Of a DNA stretch of 64,000 bases, positions 3,524-47,583 are shown one piece after another. The stretch is from an uncultured Holophagaceae bacterium. Its GTDB lineage: Bacteria > Acidobacteriota > Holophagae > Holophagales > Holophagaceae. The stretch covers positions 1-64,000 of the forward strand of contig CAIPAY010000141.1 in the NCBI GenBank assembly GCA_903863195.1, read 5' to 3'. The notes beneath the pieces are model-generated. The model saw only the letters and a list, made by a program, of their open reading frames with translations, did not search any database and had not been told where the DNA came from. The translations under genes were made by a program, and so were the position numbers. Position 1 is the first letter of the stretch. Each line of letters begins with the position of its first letter.

Positions 3524-4105
3524 ATGCGCCTCATCTTGTCCGCCTTTGCCCCCGAGCTGGGGCCCCTCGCCGCTGCGCCCCCCGCGGGCTGGACTGTGGC
3601 CACCGTGGGCATCGGCGCGGTGACGGCCGCGGCGGCGACCGCGCGGCTGTTGGCCGAGCAGCGGCCCGAGGCAGTGCTCTTCCTGGGCACCTGCGGCCGC
3701 TACGACGAGCGCCTGGCCCTCTTCGAGTGCCTCTGGGCCAGTGAAGCCATCGCCACCTCCTTGGAGGAGCTCCGGGGCGGCGCCTACCGGCCGGGCCTCG
3801 AGCCGACCCGCTGGGCCTCGACCCTGGGTGGTCCCTGGCCCCCCCAGGCCGTGGCCGTGCCCCCGGCCATCACCTCGACCCTGTCGGGCGCGGCCCTGCT
3901 GGGTAGTGTGGCTCCGGCCGAGCACCTGGAGCTCACGGGGGTCTTCGCCGCCTGTCAGGCCGCGGGCGTGCCCTGCGGCGCGGCGCTGGTGGTCGTGAAT
4001 GACGTGGGGCCCGCCGCCCCGGCCCAGTGGCAGGCCAACCACGCCCGGGGCAGCCAGCTGCTGGTGGCGGCCCTCAAGGCTGCGGGCTGGTTCGCAGAGG
4101 CGTGA
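3524..4105 (+). CDS. Nucleoside phosphorylase/hydrolase-like protein (PNP/UDP family)
   Basis: This 193-residue protein resembles MTA/SAH nucleosidases and futalosine hydrolases (MqnB). It starts with a short strand MRLILSAFAPEL, then VATVGIGAVTAAAATARLL, the glycine-rich FLGTCGRYDERL and a C-terminal VVNDVGP followed by a helix. The VxDxG segment corresponds to the catalytic Asp region near the C-terminus of these enzymes. It lies 9 nt after the methyltransferase and probably belongs to the same operon. Its 3' end overlaps the convergent comEC by about 30 nt. I cannot choose between a menaquinone-pathway futalosine hydrolase and another purine nucleosidase; it is shorter than most family members. 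Confidence 0.6.
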   Translation: MRLILSAFAPELGPLAAAPPAGWTVATVGIGAVTAAAATARLLAEQRPEAVLFLGTCGRYDERLALFECLWASEAIATSLEELRGGAYRPGLEPTRWASTLGGPWPPQAVAVPPAITSTLSGAALLGSVAPAEHLELTGVFAACQAAGVPCGAALVVVNDVGPAAPAQWQANHARGSQLLVAALKAAGWFAEA

Positions 4106-6404
4106 AGGCTGCGGCGCCCGCGCCGGTCTGGATGTGCCAGCCGCCGGGCACGGCGGCCACCTGCACCCCGCAGGCTGGGCCCGTAATCCAGGGTGTCAGG
4201 CCGTGGCGGCGGAAGGTCTCCAGGGTCTCGGCGTGGGGGTGCTCGAAGCGGTTGCGGAACCCCGCCGGGATGATGACGAGCTCGGGCTGGAGCGCCGCGA
4301 CCCAGACCGGATCCGAAGCGTTGCGGCTGCCGTGGTGGCCCGCCTTGAGCAGGCGGTGGCGGCCGGGGCCGGGCTCCCCCAGGTCCAGCAGGTCCCGCTC
4401 CTGCACGGCCAGGGCGTCGCCCATGAGCCAGAGCTCCCGGTCCTGCCAGGCCACCCGCAGCACGATGGACACCATGTTGGCGTCGGGCAGGGCGAAGGCG
4501 CCGGGGGGCCAGCGCACGCTGAAGGCGGCCGGTCCGCGCGCCCAGGCATCCTGGCGCAGGAGCCCCACCAGGTCGCTCCCCGCGCTGGGGCGGTAGGGGG
4601 CCCAGGGGTCTTCGTCGTCGGCGGTGACCGGCACGCTCGTGGAGGCCAGAGGCCAGATCCGGGCGAGGGTGGCCCAGCCGCCCGCGTGGTCCCCGTGGGC
4701 GTGGGTCAGCAGCAGGTGCACGGGCTCGCGGACGCCGCGTCGGCTGAGCACCCGCGCGAGGCGGCGGCCGGTCCAGGGCCCCGGCCCGGTGTCGAGGAGG
4801 GTGGCCTCCCCGCCCGGCACCCGCAGCAGCAGGGCGTCGCCCTGGCCGATGTCCACGGACTCCAGCGTGAGGGTGGCCGGACTGCGGCCCGTGCCCCGGG
4901 TGGCGAGCAGCCCCAGGGAGCAGGCCACCAGAACCACGGTCAGGGCCCGGGTGCGCCGCAGCCGCCCCTGCAGGTGGGCCAGGGCCAGCCAGCCGAGGGC
5001 CAGGAGCAGCCAGGGCCAGAGGATTCCGGTGGCCAGCGGCGCGATGCCCGTGAGGGCGGGCACCAGCTGATTCCCCATCCAGTCCAGTAGGGCCCCCGCG
5101 CCCTGGGTGAGCCCCGGCAGAGGCAGCAGGATCAGGGCCAGGCAGATGGGCGTCAGGAAGGCGACGAGGGGCAGCACCAGCAGGTTGGCCAGGACGCCCC
5201 ACCAGGGGGCGCCGCCGTGCAGCAGGGCCAGGAGGGGCAGGGTGGAGAGCCAGGGCGCGGTCAGGCGGGCCAGGGGTAGGGCCAGGCGGCCCAGCAGCGG
5301 GGCCAGCAGGCCCGCCAGGGGCTCCGCTCCCCAGAGGAGGCCGAGCAGGGCCCACCAGGCCAGCAGGAAGCCGGGTTCCACCCCGGCGGCCGGGTGCCCC
5401 AGCAGCCAGAGCAGCAGGGCCAGGTGGAGACCCGCCACGGGCGGCAGCTTCCAGCCGGTGCCGCGCCCGATGGCCCAGGCGAAGCCCATGAAGAGCCCCC
5501 GCCACACCGGGGCGGAGAAGCCCACCAGGGCGGCATAGAGCAGGCCCCCGGCCATGGCCCCGACGGCGGCGCCGCGCAGGCGAAGGCGGCGCAGCAGGGC
5601 CTCCAGGGCCGCCAGGACCAGCGTGACCTGCAGACCCGAGACCACGAGGATGTGGATGGTGCCGCTCTCCGCGAAGACGCTGAAGTGGGCCTCGTCCGCC
5701 GGGGGCATGCCCAGGGCCAGCGCCCCCCACAGGTCCCGGGCCGTCGGGCCCAGGGGCAGGGCGTCGAAGCGGCGCCGGATGAAGGTCTGCAGGCGCAGCA
5801 GCGGACTGGGCGCCGCGGGTCCGGTAGCCTCCAGCAGCTGAGTGGAGGCCAGATGGATGCGGCGCGGGGCCTCGTCGCTCCGAGCGCGCCACAGGGGGCG
5901 TTCCGCCAGGAAGACCGGCCCGGGCTGGACGGGGCGCAGCTCGGCGCGGACCCGGATGGGGGTGCCGGGTGCGGGCGGGGGCTGCTCGCCCTCTGCGGGC
6001 ACCGTGAGGGGCAGGGACAGGCCCTTCAGGGCGGGTGGTGCGGTCAGGTCCAGCTGGCTCCGCAGTCGCTCCCCCTGCGGGGTCCAGGGCAGGCCGATCC
6101 TGCCCTCCAGGGCCTGGAAGCCGGTGGGCAGATTCGTCTCCCACTGGGCCTTCCGAGCCAGTCCCAGGAAGGTGCTGCCCATCAGGCTCAGGGCCAAAGG
6201 CACCAGGAGCCACCGGCGGCGGCGGAGGAGCGGCAGCGAGAGCGCCCAGGCCAGGGCGCCCAGGGCGGTCCACCCTGGCGCCACCTGGCCGCTCCAGCGC
6301 TCGGGAATGAGCCAGGGCACCGAGCAGGCCGCCGCCAGAGCCCAGGCCAGAGGCCAGAGGGGAGCCCCGGAGAGGCGCTGCCAGAGGGTGGACCTGGAGA
6401 GCAT
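4074..6404 (-). CDS. comEC: ComEC/Rec2-family DNA internalisation protein
   Basis: This large inner-membrane protein (about 776 residues) would form the channel passing single-stranded DNA into the cytoplasm during natural transformation. The N-terminal half has a soluble OB-like DUF4131 region between membrane segments. The middle is the polytopic Competence domain, recognisable by FAESGTIHILVVSGLQVTLV. The C-terminal third is a metallo-beta-lactamase fold with SVDIGQGDALLL and the metal ligands THAHGDHAGG at about residue 570, then KAGHHGSRNA. The ATG at 6404 is preferred; an in-frame TTG lies two codons upstream. It is transcribed divergently from a response regulator. A pilus-type secretin operon elsewhere in the window could supply the outer-membrane part of DNA uptake. 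Confidence 0.92.
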   Translation of the reverse strand: MLSRSTLWQRLSGAPLWPLAWALAAACSVPWLIPERWSGQVAPGWTALGALAWALSLPLLRRRRWLLVPLALSLMGSTFLGLARKAQWETNLPTGFQALEGRIGLPWTPQGERLRSQLDLTAPPALKGLSLPLTVPAEGEQPPPAPGTPIRVRAELRPVQPGPVFLAERPLWRARSDEAPRRIHLASTQLLEATGPAAPSPLLRLQTFIRRRFDALPLGPTARDLWGALALGMPPADEAHFSVFAESGTIHILVVSGLQVTLVLAALEALLRRLRLRGAAVGAMAGGLLYAALVGFSAPVWRGLFMGFAWAIGRGTGWKLPPVAGLHLALLLWLLGHPAAGVEPGFLLAWWALLGLLWGAEPLAGLLAPLLGRLALPLARLTAPWLSTLPLLALLHGGAPWWGVLANLLVLPLVAFLTPICLALILLPLPGLTQGAGALLDWMGNQLVPALTGIAPLATGILWPWLLLALGWLALAHLQGRLRRTRALTVVLVACSLGLLATRGTGRSPATLTLESVDIGQGDALLLRVPGGEATLLDTGPGPWTGRRLARVLSRRGVREPVHLLLTHAHGDHAGGWATLARIWPLASTSVPVTADDEDPWAPYRPSAGSDLVGLLRQDAWARGPAAFSVRWPPGAFALPDANMVSIVLRVAWQDRELWLMGDALAVQERDLLDLGEPGPGRHRLLKAGHHGSRNASDPVWVAALQPELVIIPAGFRNRFEHPHAETLETFRRHGLTPWITGPACGVQVAAVPGGWHIQTGAGAAAFTPLRTSPQP

Positions 6405-6452: not shown

Positions 6453-6467
6453 TGGAACCCTGGGGGC

Positions 6468-7883
6468 ATGCACACAGCCCGGGTTCTTCTGGTGGATGAC
6501 GATCCCACCATCCTTGAGGTGGTCGGCACGCTGCTGTCCCGGCACGGGCATGAGGTGGTCGGCACCGGCTCGGGCCTGCGGGCCGCCCAGTTCCTGCGCA
6601 CCGAGCACTTCGACCTGGCGGTGGTGGACCTCATGCTGCCGGACCTGAGCGGCCTGGAACTGGCCCGCCAGGGGGTCGCCAAGCCGGACACCGTGGTGGT
6701 GGTGCTGTCGGGCACGACCTCGGTGGAAACGGCCCTGCAGGCCATGAAGATGGGCATCTACGACTATGTGCCCAAGCCCTTCCGCACCGAGGAGCTGGAA
6801 CATACTCTGCTCCGCGCCATCGAGAAGTCCCAGCTGAACCAGGAGAACAAGCGCCTGCGCGAGCAGATCCAGGGCAAGCTGACCGGCCCCCAGATGGTGG
6901 GCCGCTCCGAGACCTGGCGCGACCTCCAGTCCCTGCTCCGCCGGGTGGCGCCCTCGCCGTCCACGGTGCTGGTCACCGGCCCTTCGGGCACCGGCAAGGA
7001 GCTGGCGGCCCGGGCCATCCACCAGTGGAGCCCGCGCGCCCAGGGGCCCTTCGTGCCCATCCACTGCGGCGCCATTCCCGAGACGCTGCTGGAGGACGAG
7101 CTCTTCGGCCATGTGCGCGGCGCCTACACCGACGCGCGCACGGACCGGCCCGGCCGGTTCCAGCAGGCCGAGGGCGGCACCCTCTTCCTGGATGAGATCG
7201 GCACCATGCCCATGAGCCTGCAGGTGAAGCTGCTGCGGGTGATCCAGGAGCGGGAGTTCACCCCGCTGGGCTCCACGCGCACGGTGAAGTCGGACTTCCG
7301 GCTGCTGGCGGCGACCAACGAGGACCTGGGCTCCCTCGTGGAGCAGAAGCGCTTCCGGGAGGACCTCTTCTACCGGCTCAACGTGATCCCCATTCAGCTG
7401 CACCCGCTCCGCGAGCACCCCCAGGACATCTCCGTGCTGGTGGCGCACTTCACCCGGAAGTTCGCCCGGGAGCTCGGGCTGCCCCTGAAGCAGGTGGAGC
7501 CGACAGCCCTGCAGGCCATGGAGGCCTATGGCTGGCCGGGCAACGTGCGTGAGCTGGAGAATGCGGTAGAGCGGGCCATGGCCCTGGGCTCGGATCCCGA
7601 GCGCCTGCTGCTCCAGGACCTGCCCGCCTCCATCGCCGGTGTGCTGCCCTCGGTGGCCTTCCCGAGCCTCTCCCAGAACCAGGACCTGGGGCAGTTCCTG
7701 GCAGATCTCGAGCGGCACCTCCTCCTCGAGTCGCTCCAGGCCACGGGCTGGAACAAGAGTGAGAGCGCGCGCCGCCTGGGCATGCGCCGAACGACCCTCC
7801 TGCACCGGCTCCGCGCCCTGGGCATCCCCATGGACCCCCTGGCCGAGGCCGAGTCCACCCTGTCCCAGGAGGGCGGCCAATGA
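6468..7883 (+). CDS. Sigma54-dependent response regulator (NtrC family)
   Basis: The 471-residue protein has three parts. Residues 1-120 are a receiver domain with acidic pocket VDDD and phosphoacceptor Asp in AVVDLMLPDLSG. Residues about 140-375 are a sigma54-interacting AAA+ domain with Walker A GPSGTGKE, Walker B GGTLFLDEIG and arginine-finger region FREDLFYRLNVIPI. The C-terminus is a Fis-type helix-turn-helix (WNKSESARRLGMRRTTLLHRL). The sigma54-contact loop reads GAYTDA instead of GAFTGA: the key aromatic and Thr remain, the second Gly is Asp. No sensor kinase is adjacent, so the input is unknown. The ATG at 6468 follows a weak GGGGG ribosome site; its stop overlaps the next gene by 4 nt. 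Confidence 0.9.
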   Translation: MHTARVLLVDDDPTILEVVGTLLSRHGHEVVGTGSGLRAAQFLRTEHFDLAVVDLMLPDLSGLELARQGVAKPDTVVVVLSGTTSVETALQAMKMGIYDYVPKPFRTEELEHTLLRAIEKSQLNQENKRLREQIQGKLTGPQMVGRSETWRDLQSLLRRVAPSPSTVLVTGPSGTGKELAARAIHQWSPRAQGPFVPIHCGAIPETLLEDELFGHVRGAYTDARTDRPGRFQQAEGGTLFLDEIGTMPMSLQVKLLRVIQEREFTPLGSTRTVKSDFRLLAATNEDLGSLVEQKRFREDLFYRLNVIPIQLHPLREHPQDISVLVAHFTRKFARELGLPLKQVEPTALQAMEAYGWPGNVRELENAVERAMALGSDPERLLLQDLPASIAGVLPSVAFPSLSQNQDLGQFLADLERHLLLESLQATGWNKSESARRLGMRRTTLLHRLRALGIPMDPLAEAESTLSQEGGQ

Positions 7884-8551
7884 TCCAACTCGGCCGTCCG
7901 ATCCTGGCGCTGCTGCTCGCCGGCAGTCCCCTGGGAGCCTGGTCCCCCAAGGTCCACGAGGCCCAGACTGCCAAGGCCATCCGGCTCCTGCCCCGGCCCA
8001 TGGCGGCCCTGCTGCGCGCTCACCCGCAGGTGCTGCTGGAGAGCGCCCGGGGCGTGGCCAACGACCAGCCGCCCACCGTGGAGCAGGTGGAGGCCCAGTT
8101 CCGCACCGTGCTGCGCCTGAGCGAGGAAGGCCGACGTCCCGAGGAGCTCGTCCGGGACCTGGGTGTCCTCGCCCACCAGATCCAGCTGCTGGTGGATCCG
8201 TCGGCCACGGAGGGCATGAGCCCGCTCCGGGAGTCCTTCGAGGCCTACGCGGATCAGCACCTGCCGCACCTGCTGGTGACCCAGGAACCCTACTGGGCTG
8301 CTCAGGGGAGCCTCGATCCGGGCCCGCCCCTGCGCCGGTTCGTGGCCCTCAAGCTGGAGCGCAACCAGCGGCTCCAGGCTCACTTCGACGGGTCCGCAAG
8401 CCGCCGCATCGGCTCTTGGGACGAGCTCTCGCTGCCCTTCGCCCAGCTGCAGCTGGCCTTCTCCAACGGCGTCAACGCCACCGCCAACCTCTGGATCCTG
8501 CTCTGGCGCGCCGCGGGAGATCAGTGGGAGCTTCCCCCGGGCGGCCCCTGA
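7880..8551 (+). CDS. Secreted zinc-phospholipase C / P1-nuclease-like protein
   Basis: This 223-residue protein begins with a signal peptide (hydrophobic core ILALLLAGSPLGA). The predicted mature start, WSPKVHEAQTAKAIRLLP, resembles phospholipase C/P1 nuclease folds, where the N-terminal Trp and a following His bind zinc. A second HxxxxxxD segment (LAHQIQLLVD, about residue 100) fits another pair of ligands. The rest is helical, and I cannot identify all the metal ligands, so enzymatic activity is unproven. It overlaps the regulator stop by 4 nt (ATGA), which ties its expression to that gene. Function should be regarded as tentative. Confidence 0.55.
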   Translation: MIQLGRPILALLLAGSPLGAWSPKVHEAQTAKAIRLLPRPMAALLRAHPQVLLESARGVANDQPPTVEQVEAQFRTVLRLSEEGRRPEELVRDLGVLAHQIQLLVDPSATEGMSPLRESFEAYADQHLPHLLVTQEPYWAAQGSLDPGPPLRRFVALKLERNQRLQAHFDGSASRRIGSWDELSLPFAQLQLAFSNGVNATANLWILLWRAAGDQWELPPGGP

Positions 8552-8567: not shown

Positions 8568-10433
8568 ATGACCGTCATCACCACCGCTTTCCCGTCACCA
8601 CCCCCCCCCACTGACTTTGTTCCGGAGATGGACATGGGTACCTATTCCCGCCTCGGGTCCTACCTGCTGGCCTCCGAGCTCACCAGCGATCCTTTCGGCA
8701 CCATCCACCGGGCGGTGGTCATCGCAGGGAACGCGTTCGATCGGCACGTCCTGGTGCGCACCTTCTCGGAAGAGCTCTTCCAGGCGGGCATGGACACCCG
8801 GCTGGCCGAGGCCGGGCGGGTGGTGCCTCAGCTGGGCGGCGCGCGCATCTTCGGGGTGGGCTACCAGATCGAGGACGGGAAGACGCCGCACCTGGCCTGG
8901 GACCATGTGGCCGGGCGCAGCTTGGCCCAGCTCATCGAGAAGGCGCGCCAGGAGCAGATCCCCTTCGGGGTCGATCATGCCCTGACGGTGATCCAGGGCG
9001 TGGCCCAGGGCATCGTGCAGCTGCAGGCCAAGGGGCTCAGCCACGGCGTGCTCAGCCCGCACAGCGTCTGGGTGAGCATCGAGGGCTCCACCCAGATCCT
9101 GGACGCGCCCTACGCCCCGCTGGCCAAGAGCCTGCTGGCCAAGGCGCCGGTGCTCCGGCAGAAGCTGGCTCCCTACCTGCAGGGAGCGGACCCGAGTCCG
9201 CTCCAGCAGGATCTCTTCGCCCTGGGCGCGGTGCTCTATGAGCTGCTGACCTTCGAGCCGCTCCCCGTGGGCGGCGACCTCCAGTCCATCCTGGACCAGG
9301 CCACGCTCAAGGCGGCCCAGGAAAACGCGCCGCTGCCGGCGGAGCTCCGGGCCTTCCTCGGCCGGCTGCTGCTGGGCCGCCAGTCCTTCACGACCGTGGA
9401 GGCCTTCAGCGTGGAGCTGGAGCGGGTCCTCTACGACGGCGACTACAGTCCCACCACCTTCAACATGGCCTTCTTCATGCACACGCTGTTCCGGGAGGAG
9501 AACGACCGGGATGCCCTGGCCATCAAGGCCGAGCAGGGGGAGACCTACCAGCCCTACACGGCCGCGGGCGAGTCACTGCGGAGTGGGGCCACGCGGGTCC
9601 TGCCCAGCGAAAGCCAGCCCGAGTTCCCAGCTGGTTCGAAGCACACCCCGCTGCTCATCGTGGGAGGTCTGGTCGCAGTGGTGATCCTGGGTCTGGGCGC
9701 CATGTTCCTGTTCCGCCCGAGGACGGACCCGGCGGTGCAGAAACAGCTGGCGGAGCTGACGGAGCTCTCCCTGCTGAAGAAGCAGCTGGAGCAGCAGAAA
9801 GCCGACCTCGACGCCCGGGCCAAGGCCGAGTCCGAGAAGACCGCTCAGCTGCAGAAACAGCTGGGTGAGACCCGGTCGGCGGAGGACCGGGCGCGCATCC
9901 AGAAGCAGCTGGAGGAGGCCCGCCAGCGCAGCCAGGAAGTGGAGCGCCAGCAGAAGCTGGCGGAGCAGCGACTGGGCGAGCAGAAGGCGGCGGAGCAGAA
10001 GCTGGCCGCCGAAGCCAGGCCCGCCGCACCCGCACCGGCACCGGTCCCGGTGGCGGAGGCCACGCCGACGCCTGCCCCGGAAGCGGCCAGACCGGCGCCG
10101 GCGGCGGCCCCGCAAGCTGCCCCGCCGAGCGCCGCGCCGGTGAGCGAGCCGGCCCGGCTGATGAACCAGGTGGCCCCGGCCTTTCCTCCCCGGGCCGCGC
10201 AGATGCGCTGGGAGAGCAACCTGGATCACGTGGTCCGCCTGAAGGTCTACGTGAGTGAGCAGGGGCAGCCCCTGAAGGTCACCGTGATCGAAGGGGTGCC
10301 TGGCACGTATGGTTTTGACGAGGCCGCCGTCGAGGCCGCCAACAGGTCCACGTTCAGCCCCGCCACGCGGGACGGCAAGTCCGCCCGCGGGTGGACCCCG
10401 GACATCGTCTACCGCTTCCAGAAGCGGCGCTGA
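8568..10433 (+). CDS. Pseudokinase - TM - coiled coil - TonB C-terminal fusion
   Basis: Residues about 27-310 follow the Ser/Thr kinase fold, but the catalytic residues are missing. The VAIK lysine position reads VLVRTF, the HRDLKPxN loop reads HGVLSPHSVWV, and DFG is replaced by LDAPYAP. The helix LFALGAVLYELLTFEPLP matches the conserved DVYSLGxxLYEMLTG segment. A single membrane helix (about 359-381) is followed by a long Gln/Glu/Lys-rich coiled coil (386-480), a Pro/Ala-rich linker and a TonB C-terminal fold (about 530-621) with YVSEQGQPLKVTVIEG and FDEAAVEAA. This suggests a cytoplasmic sensing module joined to a periplasm-spanning tether. It starts 16 nt after the previous gene. Confidence 0.8.
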   Translation: MTVITTAFPSPPPPTDFVPEMDMGTYSRLGSYLLASELTSDPFGTIHRAVVIAGNAFDRHVLVRTFSEELFQAGMDTRLAEAGRVVPQLGGARIFGVGYQIEDGKTPHLAWDHVAGRSLAQLIEKARQEQIPFGVDHALTVIQGVAQGIVQLQAKGLSHGVLSPHSVWVSIEGSTQILDAPYAPLAKSLLAKAPVLRQKLAPYLQGADPSPLQQDLFALGAVLYELLTFEPLPVGGDLQSILDQATLKAAQENAPLPAELRAFLGRLLLGRQSFTTVEAFSVELERVLYDGDYSPTTFNMAFFMHTLFREENDRDALAIKAEQGETYQPYTAAGESLRSGATRVLPSESQPEFPAGSKHTPLLIVGGLVAVVILGLGAMFLFRPRTDPAVQKQLAELTELSLLKKQLEQQKADLDARAKAESEKTAQLQKQLGETRSAEDRARIQKQLEEARQRSQEVERQQKLAEQRLGEQKAAEQKLAAEARPAAPAPAPVPVAEATPTPAPEAARPAPAAAPQAAPPSAAPVSEPARLMNQVAPAFPPRAAQMRWESNLDHVVRLKVYVSEQGQPLKVTVIEGVPGTYGFDEAAVEAANRSTFSPATRDGKSARGWTPDIVYRFQKRR

Positions 10434-45462: not shown

Positions 45463-46818
45463 TCAAGAGCCTTCCACGGCCCGGCGGCCCAGGGACTGGT
45501 AGGTCCAGCCCGCGGCCTCCATGGCTTCGGGGCGGAAGAGGTTGCGGCCATCGAAGATGCGGCGGGCCTTGAGGGCCCTGCCCACGGCTTCGAGGTCCGC
45601 CTTGCGGTAGTCGGCCCACTCGGTGGCGATGAGCAGCGCGTCGGCGCCCTCGCAGGCCTCCAGCGGCGTGGCGGCGTAGCGCACCTTGTCGCCGATGCGG
45701 GCCTTCACGGCATCCATGGCGGCGAAGTCGTGCACCACCACCTCGGCGCCCAGGTTCACGAGCCCTTCGATGAGCTCCAGGGCCATGCTCTCGCGGATGT
45801 CATCGGTGTCCGCCTTGAAGGCCAGGCCCCAGAGGGCGAAGCGGCGGCCCTTCAGCGGGGCCGGCACGCCGGACTGCACGCCGAAGTGCGCCTTCACCTT
45901 GCGCAGGAGCACCTGCTTCTGGTGGCGGTTGGCTTCCACCGTGGCGGCGAGGGTCAGGAGCGGGTGGCCCTGCTCGCGGCCAACCTTCAGAAGGGCCTGC
46001 AGGTCCTTGGGGAAGCAGGAGCCGCCGAAGCCGGGTCCGGGGTTCAGGAAGGCGGGACCGATGCGGTGGTCGGCGCCGATGGCGGTCTTCACGTGGTCCA
46101 CGTCGGCGCCCACGGACTCCGCCAGGTTGGCGATCTCGTTGATGAAGCTGATGCGCAGGGCCAGCATGGCGTTGGCGGCGTACTTTGTGAGCTCGGCGCT
46201 GGGGGGATCCATGCGGAACCACTTGCCGCCGCTGCGGTCCAGGAAGGACTGGTAGAGCCCCTTCATGACGGCCTCGGCGTGGTCCGAGCGGCAGCCCACC
46301 ACCACGCGGTCTGGCACCAGGAAATCGCCAAGGGCCGAACCCTCGCGCAGGAACTCGGGGTTGCTCACCACCTCGAAGGCGCGGTCCGTGTGGGCGGCGA
46401 TCTCGGCATGGACCCGGGCGGCGGTCCCCACGGGAACCGTGCTCTTGTCCACCACCACGAGGGGCTTGGCGTCCCTGGCGCGCAGGGCCATGGCGTCGCC
46501 CAGCTGCCCCGCCACTGCCAGCACGTACTTCATGTCGGCGCTGCCGTCCTCGCTCTGGGGGGTGCCCACGCAGATGAAGGCGGCATCAGCGTCGGCGATG
46601 CCGACGCGGAGGTCCGTGGTGAAGCTCAGGCTGCCCGAGGCCAGGTGCTTCTTTAGCAGCTCGTCGAGGCCGGGCTCGAAGATGGGCGACTCGCCCCGGG
46701 CCAGGGTGGCCACCTTGGCCGCGTCCACGTCCACGCCGAGGATGCGGTGACCCGCCTCCGCGAAGCACGCGGCGGCCACCAGCCCCACATATCCCGAACC
46801 GATGACCAGCACCTGCAT
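45463..46818 (-). CDS. ugd: UDP-glucose 6-dehydrogenase
   Basis: This 451-residue enzyme oxidises UDP-glucose to UDP-glucuronate, a precursor of capsule and exopolysaccharide. It has the N-terminal NAD loop VIGSGYVGLVAAACFAEAGH, DAAFICVGTP, the linker VDKSTVPVGTAARV, NPEFLREGSALGDFLVPDRVVVG, catalytic Cys in GPGFGGSCFPKDLQALL and C-terminal LWGLAFKADTDDIRESMAL. The ATG at 46818 is the family-consistent start; an alternative lies five codons upstream. It is divergent from tolQ across about 70 nt. Confidence 0.96.
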   Translation of the reverse strand: MQVLVIGSGYVGLVAAACFAEAGHRILGVDVDAAKVATLARGESPIFEPGLDELLKKHLASGSLSFTTDLRVGIADADAAFICVGTPQSEDGSADMKYVLAVAGQLGDAMALRARDAKPLVVVDKSTVPVGTAARVHAEIAAHTDRAFEVVSNPEFLREGSALGDFLVPDRVVVGCRSDHAEAVMKGLYQSFLDRSGGKWFRMDPPSAELTKYAANAMLALRISFINEIANLAESVGADVDHVKTAIGADHRIGPAFLNPGPGFGGSCFPKDLQALLKVGREQGHPLLTLAATVEANRHQKQVLLRKVKAHFGVQSGVPAPLKGRRFALWGLAFKADTDDIRESMALELIEGLVNLGAEVVVHDFAAMDAVKARIGDKVRYAATPLEACEGADALLIATEWADYRKADLEAVGRALKARRIFDGRNLFRPEAMEAAGWTYQSLGRRAVEGS

Positions 46819-46887
46819 GACGACTCCGTGCAAACCTGTCGAGTGTATCGCGTTCCAGGGTTGGTATCATGGCGCCACGGAGACAGC

Positions 46888-47583
46888 ATGGCGATTCTGG
46901 CGACACCCACGGGCAACGAGGTCAACCTCCTGGAAGTCATGCTCCATGCGGGTCCGGTCGCCAAGGTGGTCATGGTCATCCTGGTCACCTTCTCGCTCCT
47001 GAGCTGGGTGGTGATCATCCGCAAGGCGCTGCTCTACCAGCGCTGCCGCAGCGTGTCCGAGCAGTTCCGGGGCGCCTTCAAGCGCGCCACGGACTGGCGG
47101 GAGTTCAAGCAGCAGGTGGAGAAGTTCGCGCTCAGCCCCCTGGTGGGGCTCTTCGTGGCGGGCTACAGCGAGGTGACCTACCAGCTGCGGCAGGTGGGCC
47201 AGGACGGCAAGTCGCAGCTGCGCAGCATGGAGGCCGTGGAGCGTGCCCTCCAGCGGGCCAGCGTGGTGGAGATGGGTCGCCTGGAGCGCTCCCTCGGGGG
47301 CTTGGCCACGGTGGCTGCTGTCAGTCCTTTCATCGGTCTGTTCGGCACCGTGTGGGGCATCATCGACGCCTTCCGCGGCATCGGGGCCACGGGCAACGCG
47401 AACCTGGCGACGGTGGCTCCCGGCATCTCCGAGGCCCTGGTGGCCACGGCGGCGGGCCTGGCGGCGGCCATTCCCGCGCTCATGGCCTACAACTTCTTCC
47501 AGGGCCAGCTCAAGCAGTTCCAGACCGAGTTGGATGACTTCTCCCTGGAGTTCATCAGCCTCTCCGAGCGGAACTTCACCTGA
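46888..47583 (+). CDS. tolQ: TolQ/ExbB/MotA-family proton-channel protein
   Basis: The 231-residue protein has the three-helix layout of TolQ/ExbB, which uses proton motive force to energise Tol or TonB systems. Helix 1 is VVMVILVTFSLLSWVVIIRKALLY; helices 2 and 3 are the pair LGGLATVAAVSPFIGLFGTVWGIIDAF and SEALVATAAGLAAAIPALMAYNFF. The GLFGTVWGI and the Thr/Ala-rich channel helix are diagnostic, as is YQRCRSVSEQF. Length fits TolQ better than ExbB. The ATG at 46888 has GGAG 5 nt upstream. No tolR, tolA or pal follow; the next gene appears to overlap its stop. Confidence 0.85.
   Translation: MAILATPTGNEVNLLEVMLHAGPVAKVVMVILVTFSLLSWVVIIRKALLYQRCRSVSEQFRGAFKRATDWREFKQQVEKFALSPLVGLFVAGYSEVTYQLRQVGQDGKSQLRSMEAVERALQRASVVEMGRLERSLGGLATVAAVSPFIGLFGTVWGIIDAFRGIGATGNANLATVAPGISEALVATAAGLAAAIPALMAYNFFQGQLKQFQTELDDFSLEFISLSERNFT

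Follow-up and report, generated by a model that had tools for sequence, protein, structure and literature searches.

In a 64,000-nucleotide stretch of a contig from an uncultured Holophagaceae bacterium (CAIPAY010000141.1, positions 1 to 64,000; hereinafter, the window), we identified a gene whose product joins a kinase domain with a dead catalytic loop, through a single transmembrane (TM) helix, to a TonB C-terminal domain (TonB_C). The same architecture is conserved in many Acidobacteriota, where it co-occurs with a catalytically intact paralogue. We see about an even chance that an uncharacterised signalling pair operates in Acidobacteriota and that this protein is its pseudokinase, the non-catalytic partner that spans the envelope.

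The gene was initially delineated as a 621-aa open reading frame (ORF) at 8568-10433 of the forward strand, which keeps 40–92% identity in 47 Holophagaceae-type loci. A start at 8568 would add 22 residues that are not conserved in the alignment of orthologues. Since the Holophagaceae orthologues align from MGTY or MATY, and a GGAG precedes the corresponding ATG by six bases, Met23 is likely the true start. From the N- to the C-terminus, the protein comprises the pseudokinase domain, a helical tail, the TM helix, a long helical region of about 95 residues, a Pro/Ala linker, and TonB_C (Table 1). In the full-length AlphaFold model, the region past the TM forms two long helices (residues 388–434 and 438–482). 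The PF03544 match spans residues 536–613 and scores 41.7 bits, against a curated cut-off of 24.6. Thus, the single TM, the coil, the linker, and the TonB C-terminal fold proposed in the earlier note are all confirmed by hydropathy, AlphaFold, and PF03544. A chance architecture is excluded, because the layout recurs across the phylum and TonB_C is matched in 34 of 36 diverse family members at E 0.01 or better. The Pfam search found no FHA match in the protein, and no model specific to this family was found in Pfam and NCBIfam.

Table 1. Features of the pseudokinase-TonB locus (window coordinates; residues are numbered in the 621-aa ORF)
Feature	Position	Strand	Evidence
NtrC-type sigma-54 response regulator, upstream context	6465..7883	+	PF00158 9e-68, PF00072 4e-23
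223-aa protein without a known family, encoded between regulator and pseudokinase	7880..8551	+	no Pfam match
Pseudokinase-TonB gene	8634..10433	+	likely start Met23: orthologues start MGTY/MATY; GGAG at 8624-8627, six bases 5' of ATG 8634
Pseudokinase domain, residues 23-289	8634..9434	+	AlphaFold pLDDT 87, pTM 0.87; Foldseek PknA/PknB; PDB sequence matches StkP/PknB
R64, VAIK Lys position	8757..8759	+	R in 42/45 Holophagaceae; R/K/N/H/L in distant members
HGVLSPHS (159-166), in place of the HRD catalytic loop; Asp, Lys, Asn missing	9042..9065	+	position 161 never Asp in 45 + 34 homologues
D179-A-P, DFG equivalent, Asp kept	9102..9110	+	D in 45/45 Holophagaceae, 5/34 distant members
Tail motif GDYSPTTFNMAFFMHTLFREENDRD (within 290-323), family hallmark	9435..9536	+	residues 290-310 mean column identity 0.71; two helices
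Single TM helix, residues 362-382	9651..9713	+	hydropathy; nearly every homologue has a single TM
Long, charged helical region, residues 388-482, probably a coiled coil in the periplasm	9729..10013	+	AlphaFold helices pLDDT ~75; 52% E/K/R/Q
Pro/Ala linker, residues 484-534	10017..10169	+	65% P+A; mostly pLDDT <50 (disordered)
TonB C-terminal domain, residues 535-621	10170..10430	+	PF03544 E=1.7e-10; TIGR01352 E=5e-10; pLDDT ~90

For the window protein on its own, the kinase match is weak by sequence (Pfam E = 0.006–0.012; StkP and PknB in the PDB, E = 1e-6 to 1e-5). The AlphaFold model of the kinase domain, built from 40 orthologues, has a bilobal kinase fold (pLDDT 87), and its best Foldseek matches are PknA and PknB (E 6e-11 to 4e-10, probability 1.00), which bears out the kinase fold presumed in the earlier note. 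That note further held that the VAIK Lys, the HRD Asp, and the DFG Asp had all been replaced. The first two losses stand (R64 and V161, respectively), while the third was rejected: the segment ...QIL-D179-A-P ends the strand after the HRD-equivalent loop, its Asp aligns with the Asp of StkP and PknB, and it is invariant in 45/45 Holophagaceae. In the loop itself, HRDLKPxN reads HGVLSPHS, so that the HRD Asp has become Val and the Asn at HRD+5 has become Ser. Arg or Lys occupies the beta-3 (VAIK Lys) position in 43/45 Holophagaceae sequences, and the VAIK Lys is present in 4/34 distant homologues. Among the distant members, the DFG Asp is lost in 29/34, and helix F keeps its structural Asp in 29/34. 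Orthologues with an intact catalytic apparatus were sought inside the family and none was seen: no HRD Asp occurs among the 45 Holophagaceae and 34 distant homologues, and catalytically intact sequences group separately. Judged on the catalytic loop, all members of the family qualify as pseudokinases.

The most conserved stretch of the family, with the consensus YSPTTFNxAFFMHxLFR, is located in the tail immediately following the kinase domain. Phylum-wide, the mean column identity of residues 290–310 (the GDYSPTTFNMAFFMHTLFREE region) is 0.71, compared with 0.28–0.56 in other regions, nucleotide-site loops included, and F298 and A301 are invariant in this alignment. The kinase-domain model places helices at residues 297–307 and 309–323. 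Hence, the constraint falls not on the pocket, but on the tail, which is likely a docking or dimerisation element, and on parts of TonB_C.

A scan of bacterial genomes turned up the protein, complete or in part, at 47 loci, of which almost all are labelled Holophagaceae, Geothrix, or Acidobacteria, and a segment search detected pseudokinase-TonB in 79 of 297 Acidobacteriota genomes. The search for the same architecture across the phylum, suggested in the earlier note, did recover it: a profile (A3) built from the end of the kinase domain and the tail, run over 396 Acidobacteriota genomes, gave strong matches in 115 of them, representing 28 GTDB families, mostly in a single copy. In most loci that were read, the match covers the kinase, TM, coil, and TonB_C. 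In 248 genomes of the L054 phylum (Bacteroidales), only weak matches to the end of the kinase C-lobe were obtained, ending ahead of the tail motif or shortly after its beginning. A plasmid collection gave no match. Pseudokinase-TonB is an old family. Additional copies were observed, namely, a tandem pair of pseudokinase-TonB genes, the second highly divergent, in one genome (G200:C60, L102:1527-3639 and 3635-5600), and a second, divergent copy in two Holophagaceae genomes (L112:3768-5810 in G115; L158 in G347).

The weaker A3 matches, situated in ORFs of 850–1170 residues, are kinases with intact VAIK, HRDVSPQN, and DFG motifs. These active paralogues resemble the pseudokinases in the order of kinase, tail, one TM, and C-terminal TonB_C, as well as in the position and sequence of the tail (xLAxFMxxLF). 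They differ by the intact catalytic residues, by an extra N-terminal receiver-like domain, and, in the genome of the window, by the lack of TonB_C. The full-length pseudokinase profile matches them at E down to 1e-134; this match and the shared architecture indicate a common origin of the two proteins. Pfam recognises a receiver domain at the N-terminus of the active paralogue in 8/9 scanned proteins. Since the phospho-acceptor Asp is replaced in 24/25 aligned domains, it is a pseudo-receiver. An observation from the neighbourhood of the active kinase-TonB gene is an adjoining conserved Glu/Lys-rich protein of about 80 residues and no clear family (L196:3767-4018, L202, L197, L193, L200).

The window's genome contains one active copy (G000:C247:37632-39803, 724 aa), with intact catalytic residues, which stops directly after the TM and has no TonB_C. 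The active kinase is single-copy in 36/41 Holophagaceae genomes, most matches stop near the same point, and no TonB_C ORF of the expected 900–1100 residues occurs in Holophagaceae among the matches listed. In this family, only the pseudokinase keeps the TonB arm, and the active paralogue ends after the TM. An unrooted tree built from 95 kinase domains separates the pseudokinases from all other sequences by a branch with 100/100 support and places the active kinase of the window's genome among the TonB-linked active kinases; being unrooted, it is silent on an origin of the pseudokinases inside the active TonB-linked clade.

The active-kinase profile has a two-peaked distribution of best-match E-values over the 396 genomes (118 reach ~1e-97 or better, and all others are far weaker), and the gap in the match distribution, judged by eye, served as the presence threshold for both genes. 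With these thresholds, both genes are present in 106 genomes, the pseudokinase only in 9, the active kinase only in 12, and neither in 269 (Fisher 1e-70, a value inflated by shared ancestry). At the level of GTDB families (~87), the respective numbers are 27 with both, 1 with the pseudokinase only, and 5 with the active kinase only (Fisher 2e-16, likewise inflated by shared ancestry). The streamlined Holophagaceae genomes G182 and G324 have neither gene. G276, G246, and G152 are among the genomes in which one gene was found without the other; some genomes of this category are incomplete.

Given that these genomes hold a dead kinase, with its near-invariant tail and envelope-spanning arm, as well as a similarly built active paralogue, a kinase-pseudokinase pair is the simplest account. 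The cytoplasmic pseudokinase would have lost the catalysis of phosphotransfer and, together with its invariant helical tail, would dock on a partner, for which the active paralogue or a substrate of that kinase is the likeliest candidate. The TM, the long periplasmic helix, and TonB_C could reach through the peptidoglycan to a target in the outer membrane or the wall, so that a mechanical or scaffolding link might couple the state of the envelope with the activity of the kinase, or its output. In Holophagaceae, the pseudokinase would supply the arm-less active kinase with a TonB arm across the periplasm. The physical pairing, the direction of signalling, and the contact with the outer membrane are what we infer here. 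Points against the pairing are that the two genes are not adjacent in the loci examined, that the co-occurrence partly reflects shared ancestry, and that 9 + 12 genomes, some of them incomplete, have one gene only. The reading of the earlier note, in which a pseudokinase linked via a TM to a periplasmic TonB domain acts as a scaffold or relay, is retained as the best one, although it had missed the tail and the active sister kinase.

Several known systems show partial similarity to this protein. GltG and NfsG of Myxococcus xanthus, in which an FHA domain is placed on a TM-TonB_C arm, and also GltJ, share with it a cytoplasmic signalling domain, one TM, a periplasmic helical region, and TonB_C (PMC3169522, PMC5349195, PMC2875238), and GltG binds the TolQ-type protein AglR (PMC3169522, PMC5349195). 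GltG (FHA-TM-TonB) is an earlier example of a TonB arm that carries a cytoplasmic signalling domain. In contrast, GltG and NfsG carry FHA where the Acidobacteriota protein has a pseudokinase, no aglRQS or glt neighbours were recognised here, and a role in motility is not indicated. MviN (ActPs3) of Mycobacterium features a scaffolding pseudokinase in an envelope protein involved in wall control, and thus is similar in having a cytoplasmic bacterial pseudokinase with a scaffolding role; however, it is an actinobacterial wall-synthesis TM protein of another kind, with an activation-loop deletion and no TonB_C (PMC12599244). EssB/YukC of type VII secretion combines a pseudokinase, a single TM, and an extracytoplasmic part in a structural role (PMC12599244), but comes from Firmicutes, has no TonB_C, and belongs to a secretion system. 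PknB and StkP, the closest solved kinase domains by sequence, likewise consist of an intracellular kinase plus a TM; unlike the pseudokinase, they are catalytically active and have PASTA ectodomains in place of TonB_C.

The described families of bacterial pseudokinases are ActPs1-3, GLW, CP1, DYD, and DLHK (PMC12599244). Going by their descriptions, the HGxLxP motif fits neither GLW (in place of HRD) nor ActPs3 (activation-loop deletion), and the review text on these families mentions neither TonB nor Acidobacteria (PMC12599244). In the open-licence PubMed Central literature, we found no description of a kinase-TonB fusion in Acidobacteria or of this kinase-pseudokinase pair. The parts, a pseudokinase and a TonB_C arm, are of known kinds; their combination and the pair appear to be new.

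In most Holophagaceae loci, the same-strand upstream neighbour of the pseudokinase gene is a regulator of the NtrC type. In about a dozen distant loci, MltG/YceG is found just upstream on the same strand, as judged from ORF clusters that include spurious antisense frames; two members of the MltG/YceG cluster were confirmed by Pfam, and in one, L091, the gene is convergent rather than upstream. The window's genome encodes four MotA/ExbB-family proteins, one of them within the window. A TolQ/ExbB-type gene lies at window positions 46747-47583 (PF01618 4e-35), approximately 37 kb from the pseudokinase gene, and no ExbD-like ORF was recognised directly behind it. Other TonB-related arrangements were seen in passing. 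At L193:12288-14661 (G200:C13), genes for ExbB, two ExbD, and TonB are followed by that of a DUF4388 protein, the one channel and two ExbD recalling AglRQS. An LptD homologue with TonB_C (PF03544 6e-14) after LptD_N/LptD is encoded about 3 kb from the pseudokinase gene (L091:13851-16439, +); eight related loci are known, the fusion being Pfam-checked in L091 only. Finally, a 690-residue ORF contains three consecutive TonB_C matches (G405:C192:9955-10884).

An explanation that dispenses with the active kinase is that the protein is a force transducer of the GltG or TolA type, moved by an ExbB/TolQ-type proton motor, with the pseudokinase only docking cytoplasmic regulators. It has a modest chance, owing to the layout common with GltG/NfsG (PMC3169522, PMC5349195, PMC2875238), to the MotA/ExbB-family genes of the genome and the window, and to the ExbB-ExbD-ExbD-TonB cluster of G200, which lies 1.4 kb from an active kinase-TonB gene. 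However, positive support for coupling to ExbB/TolQ or to TonB-dependent receptors did not emerge, and in the loci examined neither exbB/exbD nor tolQ/tolR could be recognised as neighbours of the pseudokinase gene. The TM His or SxxxH is absent from 81/81 family members, a weak test, as the genome's own canonical, exbB-linked TonB (contig C252) lacks it too. A regulator of peptidoglycan assembly on the model of MviN (PMC12599244), in which a phosphoprotein is brought in by the cytoplasmic domain and enzymes of the wall are the target of the TonB arm, would agree with the MltG/YceG neighbourhood; we assign it a small chance, as this linkage was not seen in Holophagaceae loci, and in other clades the pseudokinase gene is accompanied by the ATP synthase operon or unrelated genes.

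Nucleotide binding, or an atypical activity of the SelO type instead of a pure scaffold, might explain why Holophagaceae retain the DFG Asp and a basic beta-3 residue. Yet the HRD Asp and the +5 Asn are lost, most distant members have no DFG Asp, and the nucleotide-site columns are far less conserved than the tail, which leaves this reading a slim chance. The co-occurrence of a catalytically active sister kinase makes a kinase-pseudokinase pair likelier than a stand-alone nucleotide sensor. The loss of catalytic residues is also what a decaying relic kinase without function would display, but there is hardly any chance of that: such a gene was rejected on phylum-wide constraint, as the protein is kept over the phylum, mostly in a single copy, with a near-invariant tail, helix F Asp, and TonB_C glycines.

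Extended to the phylum, the kinase-pseudokinase pair suggests, tentatively and with somewhat more doubt than confidence, that an envelope-spanning Ser/Thr kinase-pseudokinase complex may be widespread in Acidobacteriota, with TonB-type arms joining cytoplasmic phosphorylation to contact with the outer membrane or wall, and with the arm on the pseudokinase alone in Holophagaceae. For most families of bacterial pseudokinases, no function is known; the present one combines a conserved architecture with a topology that likely spans the envelope, and it has an active sister kinase. As the family is present in cultured Geothrix species, its function is directly testable. If the pair is real, bacteria would have a counterpart of the eukaryotic kinase-pseudokinase pairs, in the form of a Ser/Thr kinase system that extends in the direction of the outer membrane.
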